DNA of 35,370 bases from Klebsiella pneumoniae (GTDB taxonomy: Bacteria; Myxococcota_A; UBA796; GCA-2862545). Position 1 is the first letter of the stretch; each line of letters opens with the position of its first letter. The notes beneath the pieces are model-generated. The model saw only the letters and a program-made list of their open reading frames with translations. It made no database searches and was not told where the DNA came from. Both the position numbers and the translations under genes were made by a program. The stretch is taken from positions 1-35,370 of the forward strand of contig CAMCWU010000005.1 in the NCBI GenBank assembly GCA_945882675.1, read 5' to 3'. This document shows, one piece after another, positions 7,809 to 21,459 of the stretch.

Positions 7809-9909
7809 TCACGCACGCGTGCGCCGCCGCCGGCGCAGCGCCAGCAGGCCCACCCCCGCGAGGCCCGGCGGTGCCCCGCCGACCACCCCGCAGCCCTTCG
7901 ACTCCTCCGCGGCGGGCGGCTCGACCTCGTCCGTGTCCTCGACGGGTGGCGTGCCCGTGTCCTCGACGACCGGGGGCTCGCCCGGGCCGCCTTCCGCGAG
8001 ATCGGAGTCACCGTCGGCGTCGCTGTCGCTGTCGTTGGGGTCGGTCTCGTCGGCGGCAGTTCCCACGAGATCGCCGTCGAACCGGCCGTCCCCGTCGAGA
8101 TCCTCCACGCCGTCGCTCAGGCCGTCGAGATCGCTGTCTGCCGCCACGGGATCGGTGGTGCTCGCCGGGTCGCCGTCGCCGACGAAGCCAGCGGCGGTGC
8201 CAACGTAGGGAATCCCGGTGACATCGCTGGTTCCAGCGGGGATCCCGACTGCGGCACCGGACTCCAAGCCGTCGGAGAGGCCATCTCCGTCGGTGTCGGG
8301 ATTGGTGGGGTTGGTGGTCGTCTCTGCGCCATCGGCGAGACCGTCGTCGTCGGTGTCGTCGTCGGTGTCGGCGTCGAGCGGGTCGGTGAGGTTCTCGGCG
8401 CCGTCGAGCAGCCCGTCATCGTCGCTGTCCGGGTCGAAGACGTCGGTTCCACCTGCCGTCTCGGCGTTGTCGGTGAGACCGTCGCCGTCGGTGTCCATGC
8501 CCATCGGATCGAGCGCGTCGACGATGAGGTCGCCGTCGGTGTCGGGGCCCGCCGGGCCGCCTTCGGCGAGGTCGTCGGCGCCGTCGCCGTCGGTGTCGGG
8601 ATCCGCCGGATCGGTCTCGTCGTTCGCCGTTCCCGCGAGGTTGCCGTCGAAGCGGCCGTCCTGGTCGAGATCCTCGTCGCCGTCGTCGATCCCATCGCCG
8701 TCGGTGTCGGCGAGCGCCACGTCGGTGGTCGACGCAGGATCGCCGTCTAGCGAGGGAGATCCCTGGGTACCCACGTAGGGAATGCCGGAGAGGGAGACGC
8801 CGGGCGCGATCCCCGCGGTCGCGCCGGACTCGAGGCCGTCGTCGAGGCCGTCCGCATCGGTGTCGACGAGCACCGGATCCCCGCCCAACGCGCCTTCTGC
8901 GCCGTCGGCGATCGCGTCGTCGTCGGTGTCGGCGTCGAGCGGATCGGTGGCGAGCTCGGCGCCGTCGACAAGGCCATCGTTGTCGGTATCGGGGTCGAAT
9001 ACATCGGTGCCCCCCAGGACTTCGTCGTTGTCCGTCAGCCCGTCGCCGTCGGTGTCTTCATTGTCCGGATCGAGCGCGTCGATCGCGCCGTCGCCGTCGA
9101 AGTCCGGGCCGCCGGCGCCACCTTCGGCGCCATCATCCGCGCCGTCGCCATCGGTGTCGGCGTCGGCGGGATCGGTCTCGTCGTTGGCCGTGCCCGCCTG
9201 GTCACCCGCAAAGGCGCCATCGAGGTCGAGATCCTCGGCGCCGTCGCTCTCGCCGTCGCCGTCGCTGTCGAGCTGGAGCGGGTCGGTGGTCGTGGACGGG
9301 TCGGCGTCGGGCGAGAAGCCAGCGAGATCCGTACCCAGATACGGGACACCGTCGCCGTCGGAGAAGCCGTTCGGGATGGGCGCCGTGACGCCGGATTCGA
9401 GGCCATCCGCGAGGCCGTCGCTATCGGAGTCGGGATCGAGGGGATCCAGGAAGACGGCGTCTTCTGCGCCGTCGGACAGTCCATCGTCGTCGCTGTCCGC
9501 GTCGAGGGGGTCGGTGAAGACGACGCGGTCTTCGGCGAAGTCGTCGAGGCCGTCGTCGTCGCTGTCCGGGTCCGCAGGATCGGTGCCGAGGACGAGCTCT
9601 TCTTCGTCGAGCAAGCCGTCGCCGTCGAAATCGGGGAAGAAGGGGCCCGAAACGATGACTTCGCCGGTGTTCCCTGGGTTGTTCACCACGGCTGGACCCG
9701 AGCCGTAGGTGCTGCCGTCGATCGCGGCGCCGTTCGTCTGGACCCCGCTCACCCCATTGCTCGCGTCGGTCGTGCAGGTGAGACCGGTGGCGTCGACCGC
9801 GATATATCCGCCGCCGCCGCCGCCGCCGCCGCCGTGGGTGACGGAGTTCACGTCGCCACCGTCGCCGCCCATCGCCTCGAGACTCCCGCACGTGACGGTC
9901 GCGCGGAAG
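7809..9909 (-). CDS. Thrombospondin type-3 repeat protein with MYXO-CTERM-like tail, 5'-truncated
   Basis: About 700 residues are readable. No credible start or signal peptide is visible: upstream of about 9909 the same frame is only antisense to the efflux adaptor. The N-terminal part is glycine-rich, with nine Gly in a row from a (CCG)9 tract. Then come many calcium-loop repeats of the D-x-D-x-D-G-L-x-D type. They are arranged in a larger unit of 567 bases (189 residues): the D-G-L-E-S-G block recurs at about 9391, 8824 and 8257. The C-terminus has K-G-C-G, a hydrophobic helix and R-R-R-R-R, as in MYXO-CTERM sorting tails. Such proteins are secreted, calcium-stiffened surface or adhesion proteins. 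Here the head is missing, so expression is doubtful. Confidence 0.75.
8000..9440 (-). repeat. Tandem 567-bp macro-repeat in the calcium-binding protein
   Basis: Two full units and one partial unit. Anchor blocks: D-G-L-E-S-G at 9391, 8824 and 8257 (exactly 567 apart), and P-Y-x-G-T at 9342, 8778 and 8208 (564 and 570 apart, showing small indels). Within a unit, each D-x-D-G loop is itself a shorter repeat. The preserved spacing suggests recent duplication or ongoing recombination. Confidence 0.75.
9808..9834. repeat. (CCG)9 trinucleotide tract
   Basis: Nine consecutive CCG triplets, encoding nine glycines in the minus-strand protein. It is a slippage-prone site, close to the junction where two truncated genes meet. 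Confidence 0.8.
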
Positions 9910-10566
9910 CGCCTCCAGGCCGCGCGGGGGCGCCGCAGCGCGTGGACCGGCGGAGGGGCAGGCGGGGCCGAGCTGCGGTCGGCGATCGCCGGGCGCGTGG
10001 CGTTCGTCCACGCTGATCCCGGGAGCGTGGTGGAGCTGGGCGCGCCGGTGGTGGAGATCGTGGACGCCGGCACCCTGTGGCTCGAAGCCCGCGTCTACGA
10101 GATCGACGTCCCGCGGATCCGGGGGACGTCGGGCGCGATGTTCGACGTCGCCGGCCGCGACGCGCCCGTCGTCGTGGACGCCGCGCACGGCGGCTCGTTC
10201 CTGGCGGTCGGTCCCGCCGTCGATCCGGTCGACCGCACGGTCCCGGTCGTGTTCGCGCTGCCGAACCCGGGCGACCTGTTGCCGGGCACCTACGCCGACG
10301 TCCGCGTGTTCACCGCCGCCGTGGTGGACACCGTCGCAGTGCCGGCCCAGGCCGTGGTGGACGACGGCGGCTTCCCCGTCGTGTTCGTGATGGACGGCGG
10401 CGAGTCGTTCTTCAAGCGCCCCGTGACGGTAGGGGTCCGCGACGGCGACCGGATCGGCATCACGGACGGCGTCGCGGCCGGAGAGCGCGTGGTGAGCCGC
10501 GGCGCGTACGAGGTCCTGCTCTCCACGTCCGCGGGCGGCATCCCCGCCCACGGCCACCAGCACTGA
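9910..10566 (+). CDS. RND efflux periplasmic adaptor (CusB/CzcB-like), N-terminus missing
   Basis: About 218 residues of a membrane-fusion protein normally 350-450 long. It opens in the second half of the lipoyl/barrel-sandwich domain ([10 protein letters not shown] then [11 protein letters not shown]). The beta-barrel (L-W-L-E-A-R-V-Y-E) and membrane-proximal domain ([10 protein letters not shown]) follow, and it ends H-G-H-Q-H. The signal peptide, first barrel half and hairpin are absent. Upstream the frame runs into the antisense of the glycine-rich repeat protein, so the 5' part has been lost. The gene ends 10 bases before the pump gene, the usual adaptor-pump-outer factor order. Unless the junction is an assembly artefact, this adaptor cannot be exported or work normally. 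Confidence 0.75.
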
Positions 10567-10576
10567 GGGCGCCGCC

Positions 10577-13500
10577 ATGCTCAACGCCTTGATCGCGTGG
10601 TCCGTCCAGAGCCGGATGCTGGTGGTCGCCGCTTCCATCCTGCTGATCGTCGCGGGCGTCGTCGTCGGCCGCGGGATCCCGGTGGACGTGTTCCCCGACC
10701 TCACCGCCCCCACCGTGACGGTGGTGACGGAGGCCCACGGCCTCGCGCCGGAGGAGGTGGAGACGCTGGTGACCTGGCCCGTGGAGTCGGCGGTCAACGG
10801 CGCATCCGGCGTCCGGCGCGTGCGATCGGCGTCGGCGGTCGGGATCTCCATCGTGTGGGTCGAGTTCGCGTGGGGCACGGACCTGCCGTCGGCCCGCCAG
10901 ATCGTCAACGAGAAGCTCCAGATCGCGGCCCCCCAGCTCCCGGCCGACATCCCGCCGCCGCAGATGGCGCCGACCTCCTCGGTCATGGGCGAGATCCTGT
11001 TCCTCTCGCTCGGGTGGGAGGGCGACGACCCGGTCCGCGCGATGGAGGCGCGTACGACGGCCGATCAGGTGCTCCGGAAGCGGCTCCTCGGCGTGCCGGG
11101 CGTGTCGCAGGTGGTGCCGATCGGCGGCAGCGTGAAGCAGGTGCAGGTGATCCTGCGGCCAGAGGCGCTCGCCGGGCTCGACGTGACCTTCGAGCAGGTC
11201 GCCGACGCCATCCGCACGGGCAACGGCAACGCATCCGGGGGCTTCGTCGCCGCGAACGAGCAGGAGTACCTGGTCCGGGTCGTCGGGCGTGCGGCAGACG
11301 CCGACGCGCTCGGCGACGCCGTGGTCACCGTGCGGGAAGGCCGGCCGATCCTGGTCCGGCAGCTCGGCGAGGTCACCGTCGGCGCGAAGGTCAAGCGCGG
11401 CGAGGGCTCGGCGAACGGGCACCCGGCCGTCGTGATGGCCGTCCTCAAGCAGCCGGACGCGAACACGCTCGACGTCACCGCCCGGATCGACGCGCTCCTC
11501 GACGAGATCGAGCCCGGCCTCCCCGCCGATCTGAAGCTCGACCGGCGCGTGTTCCGGCAGGCCGACTTCATCTCCACGGCCGTCCGAAACGTCGGGATCT
11601 CGCTCCGCGACGGCGCGATCCTGGTGACCCTCATCCTGCTGCTCTTCCTCGGGAACCTGCGGGCGTCGTTCATCTCGCTCGCGGCGATCCCGGTCTCGCT
11701 CGTGGCGGCGGTGCTCGCGCTCGCCGGCCTCGGGCTGACGCTCGACACGATGACGCTCGGCGGCCTGACCATCGCGATCGGCTCGGTCGTGGACGACGCG
11801 ATCATCGACGTGGAGAACGTGCTGCGCCGCCTGCGTGAGAACCAAACGAAGCCCGCGGACGAGCGCCGGAATCCCTATACGGTGATCTACGACGCCTCGG
11901 TCGAGATCCGGGGCTCCATCGTCTTCGCGACGCTCATCATCGTTCTCGTGTTCCTCCCCCTGTTCTTCCTCGACGGCATCGAGGGGCGGATGCTCGCGCC
12001 GCTCGGTACGAGCTACGTCGTGGCGCTGCTCGCGTCGCTGGCGGTCGCGGTGACGCTCACCCCGGCGTTGTGCGCGTACCTCCTGCCGGGTTCCAAGGCG
12101 CTCGAGGGCGAGGAGAGCCGCGTCACCCGGTGGAGCCAGCGCGCGTACGCCCCGGTCCTCGATCGCGCCCTGCGCCACCCGACGCTGGTGATGGGCGTCG
12201 CGATCGTCGCGTTCCTGGCGTCGATGGCGGTGGTCCCGTTCCTCGGGAGGACGTTCCTGCCGGAGTTCAACGAGGGCGCGCTGACCATCAACGTCGTGAC
12301 GAAGCCCGGCACCTCGCTCGCGGCGTCCGATCGGCTGGGTCGCCGCGTCGAAGCCGCCCTCCTCGCCTTCCCCGAGGTCGTCTCGACCAGCCGCCGGACG
12401 GGCCGCGCCGAGCTGGACGAGCACGCGCAGGACGTGAACGCCGCCGAGATCGACGTCATGCTCGACATCTCCCGCGGCGAGCGCGGCCGTGAGGGGTTCC
12501 TGGACGCGCTCCGGGCCGACCTCGGCACCATCGGCGGCGCGAACATCACGGTCGGCCAGCCGCTCTCGCACCGGATCGACCACCTGCTCTCGGGCACGCG
12601 CTCGGCCATCGCCGTCAAGCTGTTCGGGGACGACCTCGATCAGCTCCGCGTGGCCGCGACCCGGATCGAGGCCGTGGCGAAGACGGTCCCGGGCGCCGTG
12701 GACGTGTCGATCGAGCAGCAGGTGGACATCCCCGAGATCGAAGTTCGGGCGGACCGCAGGGCGCTCGTCCGGTATGGCCTCGGCGCCGGGGAGCTCGGCG
12801 AGTCGGTGGAGCGCGCGCTGGTCGGCCAGACGGTCGGCGCCATCCTCGAGGGCCAGCGGCCGGTGGACGTCGTGGTCCGGCTGGCGGACGGGGTGGAGGG
12901 CGACCTGGACGGCCTGCGGTCCATCCCGCTCGACACGCCGGTCGGGGTGCGGGTGCCGCTGGGGGCGGTGGCCGAGATCCTGCGGGGAAGCAGCCCGAAC
13001 ACCATCGTCCGCGAGGGCGGGAGCCGGAAGATGGTGGTCCAGGCCAATGTGGCGGGGCGCGACCTCGCGTCGGTGGTGGACGACCTCAGGGCGCGCGTGG
13101 ACGCCGAGGTGGACCTGCCGCCCGGCGTGTTCGTGGTGTACGGCGGGCAGTTCGAGTCGGCGTCCGACGCCGCGCGGACCATCGCGGGGCTGTCGGCGGT
13201 CGTGATCGTGGGCGTGTTCCTCCTGCTGGTGGCCGCCTTCGGTAGCGCGCGAAACGCCTTGTTGATGCTCGTGAACCTCCCACTCTCGCTCATCGGCGGG
13301 GTCCTCGCGCTGGCGCTGACGTCGGGCTCGTTGAGCACGCCCGCGCTCGTCGGCTTCGTGACGCTCTTCGGGATCGCGACCCGGAACGGGATCCTGATGG
13401 TCACGCACTACGAGCACCTGGTCCGCAACGACGGGCTCGACCTCGCGGAGGCCGTGCGGCGCGGGTCGGTCGAGCGGCTGGTCCCCGTGCTGATGACGGC

Positions 13501-13672
13501 GCTCGCGGCCGGCCTCGCGCTCATCCCGCTCGTGCTCGCCGCGGACGAGCCGGGCAACGAGATCCAGGCGCCGATGGGGTTCGTGATGCTCGGCGGCCTG
13601 CTGACGAGCACCGTGCTCAACATGTTCGTGGTGCCGGTCCTGTTCCGGCGGTTCGGCGAGGTGACGCGATGA
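10577..13672 (+). CDS. RND metal-efflux pump, CusA/CzcA-like (HME family)
   Basis: 1031 residues, the usual length. It is the inner-membrane proton/substrate antiporter of a tripartite efflux system. The N-terminal helix is followed by the family signature D-V-F-P-D-L-T-A-P-T-V. TM4 carries G-S-V-V-D-D-A-I-I-D-V-E-N, with the relay Asp and Glu; the position of the first CzcA Asp is Thr here. The second half has G-Q-F-E-S-A and the paired helices ending N-M-F-V-V-P-V-L-F. The place of one of CusA's methionine ligands (R-I-D-M-L-S) reads R-I-D-H-L-L-S, and the block matching L-M-Y-M-P reads L-T-I-N-V, so silver/copper specificity is not supported; a divalent metal is more likely. It overlaps the outer-membrane factor gene by ATGA. 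Confidence 0.9.
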   Translation: MLNALIAWSVQSRMLVVAASILLIVAGVVVGRGIPVDVFPDLTAPTVTVVTEAHGLAPEEVETLVTWPVESAVNGASGVRRVRSASAVGISIVWVEFAWGTDLPSARQIVNEKLQIAAPQLPADIPPPQMAPTSSVMGEILFLSLGWEGDDPVRAMEARTTADQVLRKRLLGVPGVSQVVPIGGSVKQVQVILRPEALAGLDVTFEQVADAIRTGNGNASGGFVAANEQEYLVRVVGRAADADALGDAVVTVREGRPILVRQLGEVTVGAKVKRGEGSANGHPAVVMAVLKQPDANTLDVTARIDALLDEIEPGLPADLKLDRRVFRQADFISTAVRNVGISLRDGAILVTLILLLFLGNLRASFISLAAIPVSLVAAVLALAGLGLTLDTMTLGGLTIAIGSVVDDAIIDVENVLRRLRENQTKPADERRNPYTVIYDASVEIRGSIVFATLIIVLVFLPLFFLDGIEGRMLAPLGTSYVVALLASLAVAVTLTPALCAYLLPGSKALEGEESRVTRWSQRAYAPVLDRALRHPTLVMGVAIVAFLASMAVVPFLGRTFLPEFNEGALTINVVTKPGTSLAASDRLGRRVEAALLAFPEVVSTSRRTGRAELDEHAQDVNAAEIDVMLDISRGERGREGFLDALRADLGTIGGANITVGQPLSHRIDHLLSGTRSAIAVKLFGDDLDQLRVAATRIEAVAKTVPGAVDVSIEQQVDIPEIEVRADRRALVRYGLGAGELGESVERALVGQTVGAILEGQRPVDVVVRLADGVEGDLDGLRSIPLDTPVGVRVPLGAVAEILRGSSPNTIVREGGSRKMVVQANVAGRDLASVVDDLRARVDAEVDLPPGVFVVYGGQFESASDAARTIAGLSAVVIVGVFLLLVAAFGSARNALLMLVNLPLSLIGGVLALALTSGSLSTPALVGFVTLFGIATRNGILMVTHYEHLVRNDGLDLAEAVRRGSVERLVPVLMTALAAGLALIPLVLAADEPGNEIQAPMGFVMLGGLLTSTVLNMFVVPVLFRRFGEVTR

Positions 13673-14823
13673 TCCTGCTCTTCGTGTCGCTGGCGCTCGC
13701 CGCCCCGCTCACCGCCGACGAGGTGGTGACCGCCGCCCTCGCCCGCGATCCCGCCCTCGCCGCGGCCGACGCCGCGGTCCACACCGCCGAGGGCGAGCGC
13801 CGCGCCGCGACCGGCCTGCGCGAGAACCCCACGGTCGAGGTTCGCCTGGGATATGGCGTCCCCCAGCACGAGGTCTCCGTGAGCCAGCCCCTCTCGGTGT
13901 CGGGCGAGGGGATCGCAGCCGCAAAGGCCGCGAAGGCCGCGCTGACGGCAGCCGAGGCCACGCGGGACCGGCGCCGGCTCGAAGTCGCCGCGGAAGCCCG
14001 CCGGCTCGCCATCGACGCCGTGCGGGCCGACGCCGCCCTGGTGCGCGCCCGGGAGGTCCTGGCGCTCACGGCCGCGCTGCGCACGGCGGCGGAGCAGCGG
14101 CTGGCGGTCGGCGAGTCCCCCGAGCTGGACGTGCGCCTCGCCCGCCTGGAAGAGGCCGCGGCGGCCGCGGATCAGCTTGCCGCGACCCGGGAGGCCCTCG
14201 CTGCCCGGGAGGCGCTGGCGGCCCGCACGGGGCTCGCGGCGGGCTCCGAGCTGCCGGCCGACCCGCTCGCGCTCGTCCCGGCCCCGGCATCCCCCGGCGA
14301 GCGATCCGACCTTCTCGCGGCCACCGCCCGGCGGGACGGGGCGCAGGCCGCGCTGAGCCGCGAGCGATCCGCGGCGCTCCCGCCGATCGACGTCGGCGCG
14401 TGGGCGCAGGTCCAGGACCAGGGCTGGAGCGTCGGCCCGACGGTCGCGGTGACCCTCCCCGTCTGGTCGGCGAACCGCGCCGGCACCGCGCGCGCCGCGG
14501 GCGAGCGGGACGTCGCCGCGTCCGAGCTCGCCGCGTTGGAAGCCCGGATCGGGGTGGAGCAGGCCGGCGCCGCGGACCGCCGGAGCGCCATCGACGGCGT
14601 CGCCGCGACGGCCGAGCCCTCGACGGAGGCGCGGGCGGCGCTCGCGGGCGTCGAAGCCGCCGTCCTGGCCGGCGAGATCGGTCCCGCCGAGGGCGCGCTC
14701 CTGCGGGCACGGGTCCTCGAGACGTGGGGCCGGGGCGCGGCCGCCCGCGCGGAAGCGGCGATCCTCACGGTCGATCTCGCGCTCGCGGAGTCCTGGCCCA
14801 CGCTGCTGCCGACCGCCCCGTGA
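13669..14823 (+). CDS. Outer-membrane efflux factor (TolC/CusC-like)
   Basis: 384 residues from ATG 13669, overlapping the pump stop by four bases. The signal peptide is M-I-L-L-F-V-S-L-A-L-A-A-P. It has the outer-membrane efflux protein architecture: long Ala/Arg/Glu-rich helices (about 65-180 and 265-380) and beta segments such as V-E-V-R-L-G-Y-G-V and V-G-P-T-V-A-V-T-L-P-V-W. It is on the short side for the family (420-480). It should form the outer channel for the 10577 pump. Its TGA stop overlaps the GTG start of the next gene, so all four genes are probably co-transcribed. Confidence 0.85.
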   Translation: MILLFVSLALAAPLTADEVVTAALARDPALAAADAAVHTAEGERRAATGLRENPTVEVRLGYGVPQHEVSVSQPLSVSGEGIAAAKAAKAALTAAEATRDRRRLEVAAEARRLAIDAVRADAALVRAREVLALTAALRTAAEQRLAVGESPELDVRLARLEEAAAAADQLAATREALAAREALAARTGLAAGSELPADPLALVPAPASPGERSDLLAATARRDGAQAALSRERSAALPPIDVGAWAQVQDQGWSVGPTVAVTLPVWSANRAGTARAAGERDVAASELAALEARIGVEQAGAADRRSAIDGVAATAEPSTEARAALAGVEAAVLAGEIGPAEGALLRARVLETWGRGAAARAEAAILTVDLALAESWPTLLPTAP

Positions 14824-15857
14824 AGCCGATCGCCCGCGGGGTCCTCCTCGCGGTCGCGGCGGCTGGCCTGTTCGGCGCGGCGACCCCGCTGATCCAGCGG
14901 TTCGGCGCGGGCGCGGGCCCGTCGGCGACCGCCGCCCTCCTCTACGCGGGCGCGGCGGGGTTTGCCGCCGTGTCGCGCGGCGCGTCGGAGGAGATCCCGC
15001 TCACGCGGCGGTGGGGGCCCCGGGTGGTCGCCGTCGGGCTCACCGGGGCGTTCCTGGCGCCCGTCGCGCTCGCGGCCGGCCTCTCCCGGACCGACGGCAC
15101 CACGGCGTCGCTCCTGCTGAACCTCGAGGCCGTGTTCACGGTGGGCCTCGGCGCGCTGTTCTGGCGGGAGCCGGTCGGCCGGCGGGTCCTCGCGGCGGTC
15201 GCCGTGATCGCGGGCGGCGGGGCGCTCGTGGCGCTGGACCACGCGGGGACCGGGGCTTCGACGTGGATCGGGCCGGTCCTCGTCGCGCTCGCGACGCTGG
15301 CGTGGGCGGCGGACAACACGCTCTCGCGGCCGCTCTCGGACCTCGACCCGGCGGACGTCGTGGCGGCGAAGGGCGCGGTCGGGACGGTGGCGTCGCTCGT
15401 GCTGGCGGCGGGAAGTGGCGCTGCCTGGCCGGAGATCGGCCCGGCGCTCGGGATCGTGGCGTGCGGCGCGCTCGGGTTCGGGGGCTCGCTCCGGCTCTAC
15501 CTGCGGGCGCAGCGGGTGCTCGGGGCGGCGCGTACGGGCTCGGTCTTCGCGGTCGCGCCGTTCCTGGGCGCGCTCGTGGCGACGGCGCTCGGAGAGCCGC
15601 TCGGCGGCTGGCTCACGGTCACGGGCGGCCTGCTGATGGGCGCCGGCGTGTGGCTGCACCTCGGCGAGGACCACGCGCACGCGCACGACCACGCGGCGCT
15701 CGAGCACGAGCACCTGCACCGCCACGACGACGGCCACCACGACGATCACGTCCACGACCCGCCCGTGATGGGCGAGCATGCGCACCCGCACGTCCACGAC
15801 CCGCGCAGCCACGTCCACGCGCACGGGGAGGACCTGCACCACCGTCACCATCCGTGA
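14820..15857 (+). CDS. DMT/EamA-family exporter with histidine-rich C-terminal tail
   Basis: 345 residues from GTG 14820, which overlaps the upstream TGA as GTGA. About ten hydrophobic helices fill residues 1-280, with two EamA-type halves (first half to S-L-L-L-N-L-E-A-V-F-T-V-G-L-G-A, second from G-P-V-L-V-A-L-A-T-L-A-W). The last 67 residues hold 24 histidines mixed with Asp/Glu (E-D-H-A-H-A-H-D-H, H-H-R-H-H-P). Similar His-rich tails are known in a DMT subgroup linked to divalent metals. Its place at the end of a metal-RND operon supports export of Zn, Co, Ni or similar, with the tail as metal buffer or sensor. The metal is inferred. Confidence 0.82.
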   Translation: MKPIARGVLLAVAAAGLFGAATPLIQRFGAGAGPSATAALLYAGAAGFAAVSRGASEEIPLTRRWGPRVVAVGLTGAFLAPVALAAGLSRTDGTTASLLLNLEAVFTVGLGALFWREPVGRRVLAAVAVIAGGGALVALDHAGTGASTWIGPVLVALATLAWAADNTLSRPLSDLDPADVVAAKGAVGTVASLVLAAGSGAAWPEIGPALGIVACGALGFGGSLRLYLRAQRVLGAARTGSVFAVAPFLGALVATALGEPLGGWLTVTGGLLMGAGVWLHLGEDHAHAHDHAALEHEHLHRHDDGHHDDHVHDPPVMGEHAHPHVHDPRSHVHAHGEDLHHRHHP

Positions 15858-19114: not shown

Positions 19115-20482
19115 TCACGGGGCGGTCGGCGGCTCCACGTGGATCATCCCCATCATCCCGAGCTCCGCCTGCTCGAGCACGTGGGTGTGCAGCATCCAAG
19201 CGCCTTCCGCGTCGAGGGGCACCAGGACGTCGGTGACCCCGAGCGGCGGCACCGTCACGACGTCCTCCCAGCTCGGCGCCCCATCCGCGGACTCGAGCTG
19301 CACGAAGGTCCCGTGCAGATGGAACGGCACATCCTGGTCCGTCTCGTTGATCAGCCGCCAACGCTCGCGATCGCCGAGCACGCCGTCCAGGTGGACGTCG
19401 AACGGCCAGCTCTGCCCGTCGATGGCGTAGCGCAGGTCGGTGAGCCGCTGAAACCGCAGCTCGCGCATCGCGGCGTCGGGAGCGACGATCGGCGGACGTG
19501 CCTGACGCGCCGGGACAGGCCCTGGATCGGGTCCGCCCACGCCGACGACCGCGAACAACGCCAGAGATTCGAGCGGCTCGGGCCCTAACCCGCGATCGTA
19601 GGGGGCGAGCGTCACGTCGTGGCGGTCGCCGAACTCCGTGTCCACCAGCACCTCCAGGCGGTCGCCGGGCGCCAGCACCACCTCCCGGGCGCGGACTGGC
19701 TGCGCGAGCGTCCCGCCCTCGTGGGCGATCAGGAGCGCGTCGGTTCCCAGGTCCACGCGAAAGGTCCGGGCCGCCGCAGCGTTCAGCAGGCGCCACCGCT
19801 CGCGGCGGCCCGCCAGGATCGTCCCCGTACCGGCGAGCGCGCCGTTCACGAGGAGCGTGCTCCCGATCCGCCCGGCGTACAGGTCGTCGGCCGTCCATTC
19901 GTCGTCGAACCGCCCGTCCTCGTGAAGGCGGAGGTCGTCCAGCACGATCACCCGGTCGGCCGACACTGGGAGCGGATCTCCGCCCGGCATGCGGATCGGG
20001 GCGTACAACCCGCGCTCCACCTGCCGGTGGGACGACAGGTGCGGGTGGTACCAGCCGAGCCCCTCGTCTACGACGTCGACCACGTAGTCCCAGGACTCGC
20101 CCGGCCAGATGACGAGCTGGCTGCTCGGCGTGCCGTCCTGGTCGGCCGGGATCCGCAGGCCGTGGAGGTGCAGCGTAGTCGCCTCCAGGAGCTGGTTCTC
20201 CAGGTGCAGGACGAGTCGCGTGGCGTCCCCCAGGTCGAGCAGCGGCCCGGGCACGGACGCGCCGTCCGCGGACCGGTCCGCCCACACCCAAAGGTCGGTG
20301 AGCCCTGCGCTCACGAGGGAGACGTCCGCCTCCCGCGCCACGAGGTCCACCTCGAGGACGGCCGGGTCCGGGTCGAGGTCGGCCGCGGCGACCGGCTCCG
20401 GCAACCGCGCGACCGGCGCGACCGGCGCGAGATCGGCGTCGGGAGGCGGTGAGCAGGCGAGCGCGAGGAGCAGCAGGCCCAC
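19115..20482 (-). CDS. Multicopper-oxidase-like lipoprotein lacking the type-1 copper site
   Basis: 455 residues from GTG 20482, with lipobox L-A-L-A-C (Cys10). It has three cupredoxin domains. The four His-x-His pairs that hold the trinuclear type-2/3 cluster are all present: His105/107 (L-H-L-H-G), His146/148 (W-Y-H-P-H), His388/390 (F-H-L-H-G) and His432/434 (L-H-T-H). The type-1 ligands are gone. In family members motif 3 starts with His (H-P-x-H-x-H) and here it is Val385. The motif-4 Cys (H-C-H) is Thr433, and its second His is Gln438. Only the axial Met443 remains. Without type 1 copper a normal oxidase cannot feed electrons to the cluster. It may bind copper, react with O2 by another route, or be structural. 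It is divergent from a cytochrome-like lipoprotein. Confidence 0.88.
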   Translation of the reverse strand: MGLLLLALACSPPPDADLAPVAPVARLPEPVAAADLDPDPAVLEVDLVAREADVSLVSAGLTDLWVWADRSADGASVPGPLLDLGDATRLVLHLENQLLEATTLHLHGLRIPADQDGTPSSQLVIWPGESWDYVVDVVDEGLGWYHPHLSSHRQVERGLYAPIRMPGGDPLPVSADRVIVLDDLRLHEDGRFDDEWTADDLYAGRIGSTLLVNGALAGTGTILAGRRERWRLLNAAAARTFRVDLGTDALLIAHEGGTLAQPVRAREVVLAPGDRLEVLVDTEFGDRHDVTLAPYDRGLGPEPLESLALFAVVGVGGPDPGPVPARQARPPIVAPDAAMRELRFQRLTDLRYAIDGQSWPFDVHLDGVLGDRERWRLINETDQDVPFHLHGTFVQLESADGAPSWEDVVTVPPLGVTDVLVPLDAEGAWMLHTHVLEQAELGMMGMIHVEPPTAP

Positions 20483-20556: not shown

Positions 20557-21459
20557 ATGCGCCGCCTGTTCCCCCTCCTCGCCCTGCTCGGCTGCGGCGA
20601 CAAGGACCCCGTCGACACCGACGTCACGGAGGGCGACGCGGACGCCGACGCCGATTCGGACACGGACGCCGACACGGACGCCGACTCGGACCCCACCACG
20701 AGCGACGTGGTGGAGCCGTGCTTCGAAGCGGATATCGTCCCAATCTTCGAGCGGAGCTGCGGCACCGGCGACGACGGCTGCCACAGCGCGATCGCGTTCG
20801 GCCCGACGCCCGCCGGCGGCTGCGAAGGCTGGTTATCCCTCGTGGACGCGCCCCTCGGCGGCGACGGCTGCCCGCCCATGGATCTCTACACGCGCCTGAC
20901 GGAGCTCCACGGCTGGTCGTGCCTGGTCAACGGGGACGCCACGTCCGGGTTCGACCCGATCGTGTGGAACTACGTGACGCCCGGCGACCCCGATACGAGC
21001 GTGCTCTACCAGAAGATCGCGCCGGACGGGATACTGTGCGCCGGCGAGAACCAGGTCCCGACGCAGCGGATGCCCATGTCCGGCCCGCTGTCGGAGGCCG
21101 AGATCGCGCTCGTCCGAACCTGGATCGAGCAGGGCGCGAAGACCAACGCCATGTGCGCGGGGACGACCACGCAGGTGCCGAACGCCGCGCCCGTCGTGAT
21201 CATCGACCACCCGGGAGACGGCGAGATCCGCTACATCTCGGCGGGGACGTATCCGTTCGTCGTGCGCGCCACGGACGCGGAGGACGGCGACCTCGCCGCG
21301 GGCGTCGTGTGGACGAGCAGCCTGGAAGGCCGGTTCGGGACCGGCACGGGGTTCGACCACGTACTGCAGCCAGCGGGCTTCCACGTCGTGACGGCGTCCG
21401 TGACGGACTCGGGCGGCCTGACGGGCGCGGCGAGCATCACGATCGAGATGCGGCCGTGA
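20557..21459 (+). CDS. Cytochrome-like lipoprotein with CX6CH motif and Ig/PKD-like domain
   Basis: 300 residues from ATG 20557. Lipobox M-R-R-L-F-P-L-L-A-L-L-G-C (Cys13), then a D-A-D-T-D linker to about residue 48. Residues 50-195 resemble the c-type-cytochrome-like domain of planctomycetes and myxobacteria: D-I-V-P-I-F-E-R-S-C, then C-H after six residues, and a distal R-M-P-M-S-G-P-L-S-E-A-E-I with W-I-E-Q-G-A. The usual C-x-x-C-H is stretched to C-x6-C-H, so covalent haem is uncertain. The last 90 residues look like a PKD/Ig-like domain. The gene faces the multicopper-oxidase-like gene, hinting at shared redox or copper work on the cell surface; that link is inference. Confidence 0.72.
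   Translation: MRRLFPLLALLGCGDKDPVDTDVTEGDADADADSDTDADTDADSDPTTSDVVEPCFEADIVPIFERSCGTGDDGCHSAIAFGPTPAGGCEGWLSLVDAPLGGDGCPPMDLYTRLTELHGWSCLVNGDATSGFDPIVWNYVTPGDPDTSVLYQKIAPDGILCAGENQVPTQRMPMSGPLSEAEIALVRTWIEQGAKTNAMCAGTTTQVPNAAPVVIIDHPGDGEIRYISAGTYPFVVRATDAEDGDLAAGVVWTSSLEGRFGTGTGFDHVLQPAGFHVVTASVTDSGGLTGAASITIEMRP

Follow-up and report, generated by a model that had tools for sequence, protein, structure and literature searches.

A three-domain multicopper oxidase homolog that keeps all trinuclear-cluster histidines and lacks the type-1 copper site

In multicopper oxidases (MCOs), electrons normally enter at the type-1 (T1) copper, which is separate from the three-copper pocket where oxygen is bound. 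Work on the trinuclear cluster (TNC) without T1 copper has so far relied on engineered T1-depleted mutants such as CueO C500S and Fet3p C484S, and the T1-depleted Fet3p (C484S) still holds 2.7 +/- 0.3 Cu (PMC5796215). Natural MCO homologs devoid of a T1 site have also been described. Among these, SufI (FtsP) keeps two of 12 copper ligands, binds no copper and has the space over its DGx loop occluded (PMC2661564), while insect MCORP and plant SKU5 are also without T3 ligands (PMC4203857). The literature that we searched, which covers the field incompletely, describes no naturally occurring MCO that lacks T1 but has an intact TNC.

The gene described here lies in a window of 35,370 nucleotides, the whole stretch of DNA that was analysed (Table 1). 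Its reading frame is intact, opens with a GTG start and spans 455 amino acids. The predicted product is a three-domain MCO homolog: it passes the Pfam gathering cut-offs of Cu-oxidase_3 (90.8 bits, cut-off 21), Cu-oxidase (26 bits, cut-off 21) and Cu-oxidase_2 (61.7 bits, cut-off 20.4), domain matches that place it by homology in the MCO superfamily. Its top relative of solved structure is the laccase of Thermus thermophilus (Tth-Lac), with an E-value of 1.9e-47 over residues 73-449. The same laccase was the best fold match of an AlphaFold model built from an eight-row alignment, a poor model (pLDDT 51.8, pTM 0.58) with which the fold search supports the fold class only. A lipid anchor and an envelope location are probable for the protein, judging from the N-terminus; a cysteine in the lipobox region is common to several of the aligned relatives. 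A search for promoter and terminator patterns gave no match.

Table 1. Coordinates of the MCO homolog, its copper-ligand codons and neighbouring genes in the window
Feature	Position	Strand	Basis
MCO homolog without T1 site, three cupredoxin domains, probable lipoprotein	19115..20482	-	ORF, Pfam, structure-relative match
N-terminus MGLLLLALAC, short lipoprotein-type signal	20453..20482	-	Lipoprotein nature predicted from sequence
Codons 105-107, H-L-H, TNC ligands; canonical HWH, Leu at centre here	20162..20170	-	Direct reading, alignment
Codon 116, Asp of DGx motif, aligned with CueO Asp112	20135..20137	-	Invariant among aligned relatives
Codons 146-148, H-P-H, TNC ligands	20039..20047	-	Direct reading, alignment
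Codon 385, Val (GTG) for first T1 His	19328..19330	-	His in 49/49 relatives
Codons 388-390, H-L-H, TNC ligands	19313..19321	-	Direct reading, alignment
Codons 432-434, H-T-H for H-C-H; Thr (ACC) for T1 Cys, flanking T3 His retained	19181..19189	-	Direct reading, alignment, motif scan
Codon 438, Gln (CAG) for second T1 His	19169..19171	-	Direct reading, alignment, motif scan
Codon 443, Met, remaining T1 axial ligand	19154..19156	-	Direct reading, alignment
Lipoprotein transcribed divergently from the MCO gene; contains C-x6-CH but not CxxCH and matches no family	20557..21459	+	ORF reading, profile searches, motif scan
Heavy-metal RND pump of the CusA/CzcA type with outer-membrane efflux protein, about 4 kb from the MCO gene	10577..14823	+	Profile matches

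All eight TNC histidines are present and form four HxH motifs at residues 105/107, 146/148, 388/390 and 432/434 (H105, H107, H146, H148, H390, H432 and H434 encoded by CAC, H388 by CAT). An earlier note on this DNA had reported these four pairs, with every residue number correct, and had further claimed that the T1 ligands are replaced and only a methionine is left; residues and codons bear this out, the replacements being H385V (GTG), C433T (ACC) and H438Q (CAG), next to a retained Met443 (ATG). Val385, Thr433 and Gln438 align with the T1 His, Cys and His of the Thermus laccase. Of the residues expected in a functional MCO, the homolog thus has the eight cluster histidines in four HxH motifs and lacks the two histidines and the cysteine of T1. 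Because Cys10, in the predicted lipobox, is the sole cysteine of the protein, the T1 blue-copper site cannot form. Asp116 is retained as well, and its CueO equivalent, Asp112, adjoins the cluster (PMC2944330). At the position of CueO Glu506 the homolog and most canonical relatives alike have Ala, which makes this position uninformative.

The three-domain layout and the TNC ligands are those of Tth-Lac (strain HB27, PDB 2xu9 and 9cpm), which differs in possessing the full T1 set where the homolog has Met443 only. CueO C500S and Fet3p C484S likewise combine a missing T1 site with intact TNC ligands, but they are single cysteine substitutions made in the laboratory, whereas three ligands have been replaced naturally here, and the homolog can be regarded as the natural counterpart of such mutants. 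It shares its natural lack of T1 with FtsP/SufI, MCORP and SKU5, the natural T1-less homologs that we found described. These have lost TNC ligands too, unlike the homolog, which keeps all T2 and T3 ligands and represents a separate state, intermediate between oxidase and scaffold; the selective loss of T1 that had been proposed in comparison with FtsP/SufI therefore stands. Identity with FtsP/SufI was rejected at 67.6 bits against an NCBIfam equivalog cut-off of 581, with eight of eight cluster histidines kept against the two ligands of SufI. Identity with CueO was rejected at 151.6 bits against a cut-off of 525. The protein also lacks a CueO-type Met-rich insert; beyond the initiator it has only six methionines, and four of these sit in the C-terminal copper motif or beside it.

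The suggestion that homologs might share Val, Thr and Gln at the three T1 positions did not hold. Among 49 aligned relatives, 47 are canonical at all ligands and none is without more than one; the exceptions are L033, with Gly for Cys433, and L044, without the T3 His434. The latter protein (L044:1489-2886, genome G315) stands close to the homolog in the tree and reads HCTIPEH against HCHILEH, having lost a T3 ligand and kept T1, the opposite of the homolog. A motif scan of 378 genomes from the phylum, with codons 433 and 438 left free, gave 116 matches, all of them with Cys and His by hand count, and a pattern scan requiring Gln at 438 matched the window alone in 379 genomes. Seven stretches emerged when 84,980 species genomes were scanned for a non-TGY codon in place of Cys433, with a pattern that leaves out the Ser (TCN), Phe, Tyr, Trp and Leu (TTR) codons; two of the seven are MCO homologs: L032:4147-4509 reads HRH, with Arg for the T1 Cys, and also HLPG, and L033:1705-3240 reads HGH on a contig with a coverage of 1.18. 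Neither was accepted as a further T1-less case, since the readable T1 His is kept and the Cys codon differs by a single base; both are likely low-coverage sequence errors. The scan thus produced no convincing second case, and a search of genome contigs with the homolog as query for T1-less relatives gave no match. The best relatives within the phylum, which is probably Myxococcota judging from the label of L033, are 35-43% identical, and none of the 62 other genomes searched for the order gives a match at E <= 1e-60.

A family of T1-less MCOs was consequently rejected, the relatives being canonical or nearly so and the scans having returned no second convincing case. In the tree the homolog nests among canonical proteins on a branch of 1.61 (median 0.31), a length that makes its exact position unsure. 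On these sequence comparisons the T1-less form is a derived state, restricted to one lineage as far as sampled. The earlier note had held that canonical close homologs would make the change a one-off mutation; this largely applies, but a single point mutation is excluded, as three ligands have changed, by a minimum of three, two and one bases or six in total. The same codons speak against a sequence or assembly artefact of a metagenome-assembled genome, an explanation that we consider very improbable. The genome is a 3.7 Mb draft of 377 contigs with a completeness of 80.8% and no second match to the homolog, and near 9.7-10.1 kb of the same contig two truncated genes appear to be joined. Against this, the three altered codons are separate and in frame within a clean ORF, and they bear little resemblance to the questionable single-base variants L032 and L033.

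Sixty alignment columns are conserved in at least 90% of the 49 relatives, and the homolog departs from nine of them (87, 106, 255, 385, 394, 408, 433, 435 and 438), including all three T1 columns and no TNC histidine. T1 loss is concentrated beyond chance among the conserved columns (hypergeometric P about 0.0025 for nine departures to take in all three T1 columns). The expectation for keeping all eight cluster histidines is about 0.35, and 43 of the 49 conserved columns other than these histidines and the three T1 columns are kept as well. The cluster has thus been retained no better than other conserved columns, and its retention is no proof of metal binding or cluster use. As this retention does not rise above that of conserved positions in general, the earlier proposal that the TNC serves to sense or store copper, or to react with O2 or peroxide, stays conjectural. 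In identity to the nearest clade, the TNC loop 100-120 is the best kept, with a ratio of 0.94 against 0.74-0.77 in the T1-carrying loops.

The same data weigh on the idea of a gene in decay, in which T1 went first and the remainder is following. The homolog stands alone on its long branch, and the single further genome of the genus has no counterpart at useful similarity. We nevertheless hold decay to be quite unlikely, given the intact 455-codon frame, the conserved residues retained and a strong codon periodicity (GC of 0.81/0.46/0.92 by codon position, resembling a working gene of the same window). When neutral change was simulated up to the point at which none of the three T1 residues remained, 1.25% of runs still had a stop-free frame, 0.8% all eight TNC histidines and 0.35% both, and no run retained all 43 other conserved residues. 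Simple neutral decay or pseudogenisation since the loss of T1 is unlikely, and the intact frame is under constraint; recent decay following an earlier, selected T1 loss could still be accommodated.

Our tentative best explanation is a lineage-specific, envelope-anchored pseudo-oxidase of the MCO superfamily that would bind copper at the TNC and perform no laccase cycle. An ordinary bacterial three-domain MCO would have been the ancestor; the T1 site would then have been lost, and the full TNC ligand set and the DGx loop retained. With neither T1 copper nor another cysteine, the usual electron path is missing. The protein would accordingly have no T1 copper by which to receive substrate electrons, and an efficient four-electron laccase or cuprous-oxidase cycle would be precluded, which may leave copper binding or another non-oxidase task in the envelope. 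By analogy with the engineered T1-depleted Fet3p, the TNC would most likely still load copper; since Fet3p C484S holds copper and structures of C500S CueO exist (the T1D entries 3nsc and 3nt0, among our fold-search matches), a copper-loaded TNC without T1 is plausible. The retention of eight of eight TNC histidines and Asp116, together with the replacement of three of four T1 ligands, favours a pseudo-oxidase of this kind. Against it, no close ortholog was found with which selection could be gauged, and other positions conserved in the relatives (Gly87, Trp106, Phe394, Thr408) have changed likewise.

These additional changes, the T1 loss and the long branch also fit early pseudo-enzyme evolution towards the main rival, a metal-free scaffold in which the MCO fold has been co-opted for binding or structure and the TNC histidines persist by inertia or packing. 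Precedents exist in SKU5, in the copper-free SufI (PMC2661564) and in MCORP, which has little copper and no oxidase activity (PMC4203857). Those precedents have, however, also lost most TNC ligands, MCORP keeping two T2 His, whereas the homolog preserves the complete set of cluster histidines and the DGx loop, and we judge a scaffold rather less probable, though a serious possibility.

The copper-binding pseudo-oxidase has further to be weighed against an enzyme or sensor that works with the TNC alone, either receiving electrons directly from a small reductant or another protein (with O2, peroxide or superoxide) or sensing copper or O2. The complete TNC ligand set and the retained Asp116 agree with such a protein. 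The O2 reactivity of Fet3p TNC mutants was reportedly a subject of study by Palmer in 2002 (cited in PMC11817551). No redox partner was found, no CxxCH haem motif occurs on either strand of the whole window, and no conserved family points to a selected new activity; we regard this alternative as unlikely. An equally low probability is given to the stronger proposal of a natural T1-independent trinuclear copper protein, whose TNC would carry copper in vivo and serve there in sensing or in the chemistry of O2, peroxide or copper, and which would have been selected as such in the lineage. If copper is bound, the homolog would reveal whether the cluster by itself is put to use in evolution, and it would be a ready test protein; coming from one sampled lineage, it is a curiosity pending biochemistry or further genomes.

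The earlier note had put forward the neighbouring divergent lipoprotein as a cytochrome-like electron donor. This idea could not be sustained: a c-type cytochrome identity was rejected, the protein having only C-x6-CH in place of CxxCH, and neither Pfam nor NCBIfam gave a match. A 47% identical relative in another genus of the family (L066:9408-10364, genome G005) adjoins an ORF that reads as beta-lactamase-like and not an MCO gene, so that the unclassified lipoprotein is unlinked to the MCO there. Synteny of the MCO gene with its neighbours, tested in G005 and G001, was not found.

The CusA/CzcA-type pump nearby is compatible with metal handling, and shares no operon with the minus-strand MCO gene. 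Directly after the heavy-metal RND genes, at window positions 14820-15857, lies an EamA-type transporter whose C-terminal tail is very rich in His. At positions 9700-10100, a CusB-like adaptor (plus strand) meets a repeat-rich protein (minus strand) near a (CCG)n tract, with the N-termini apparently missing in both, possibly as an assembly chimera or a recombination junction.
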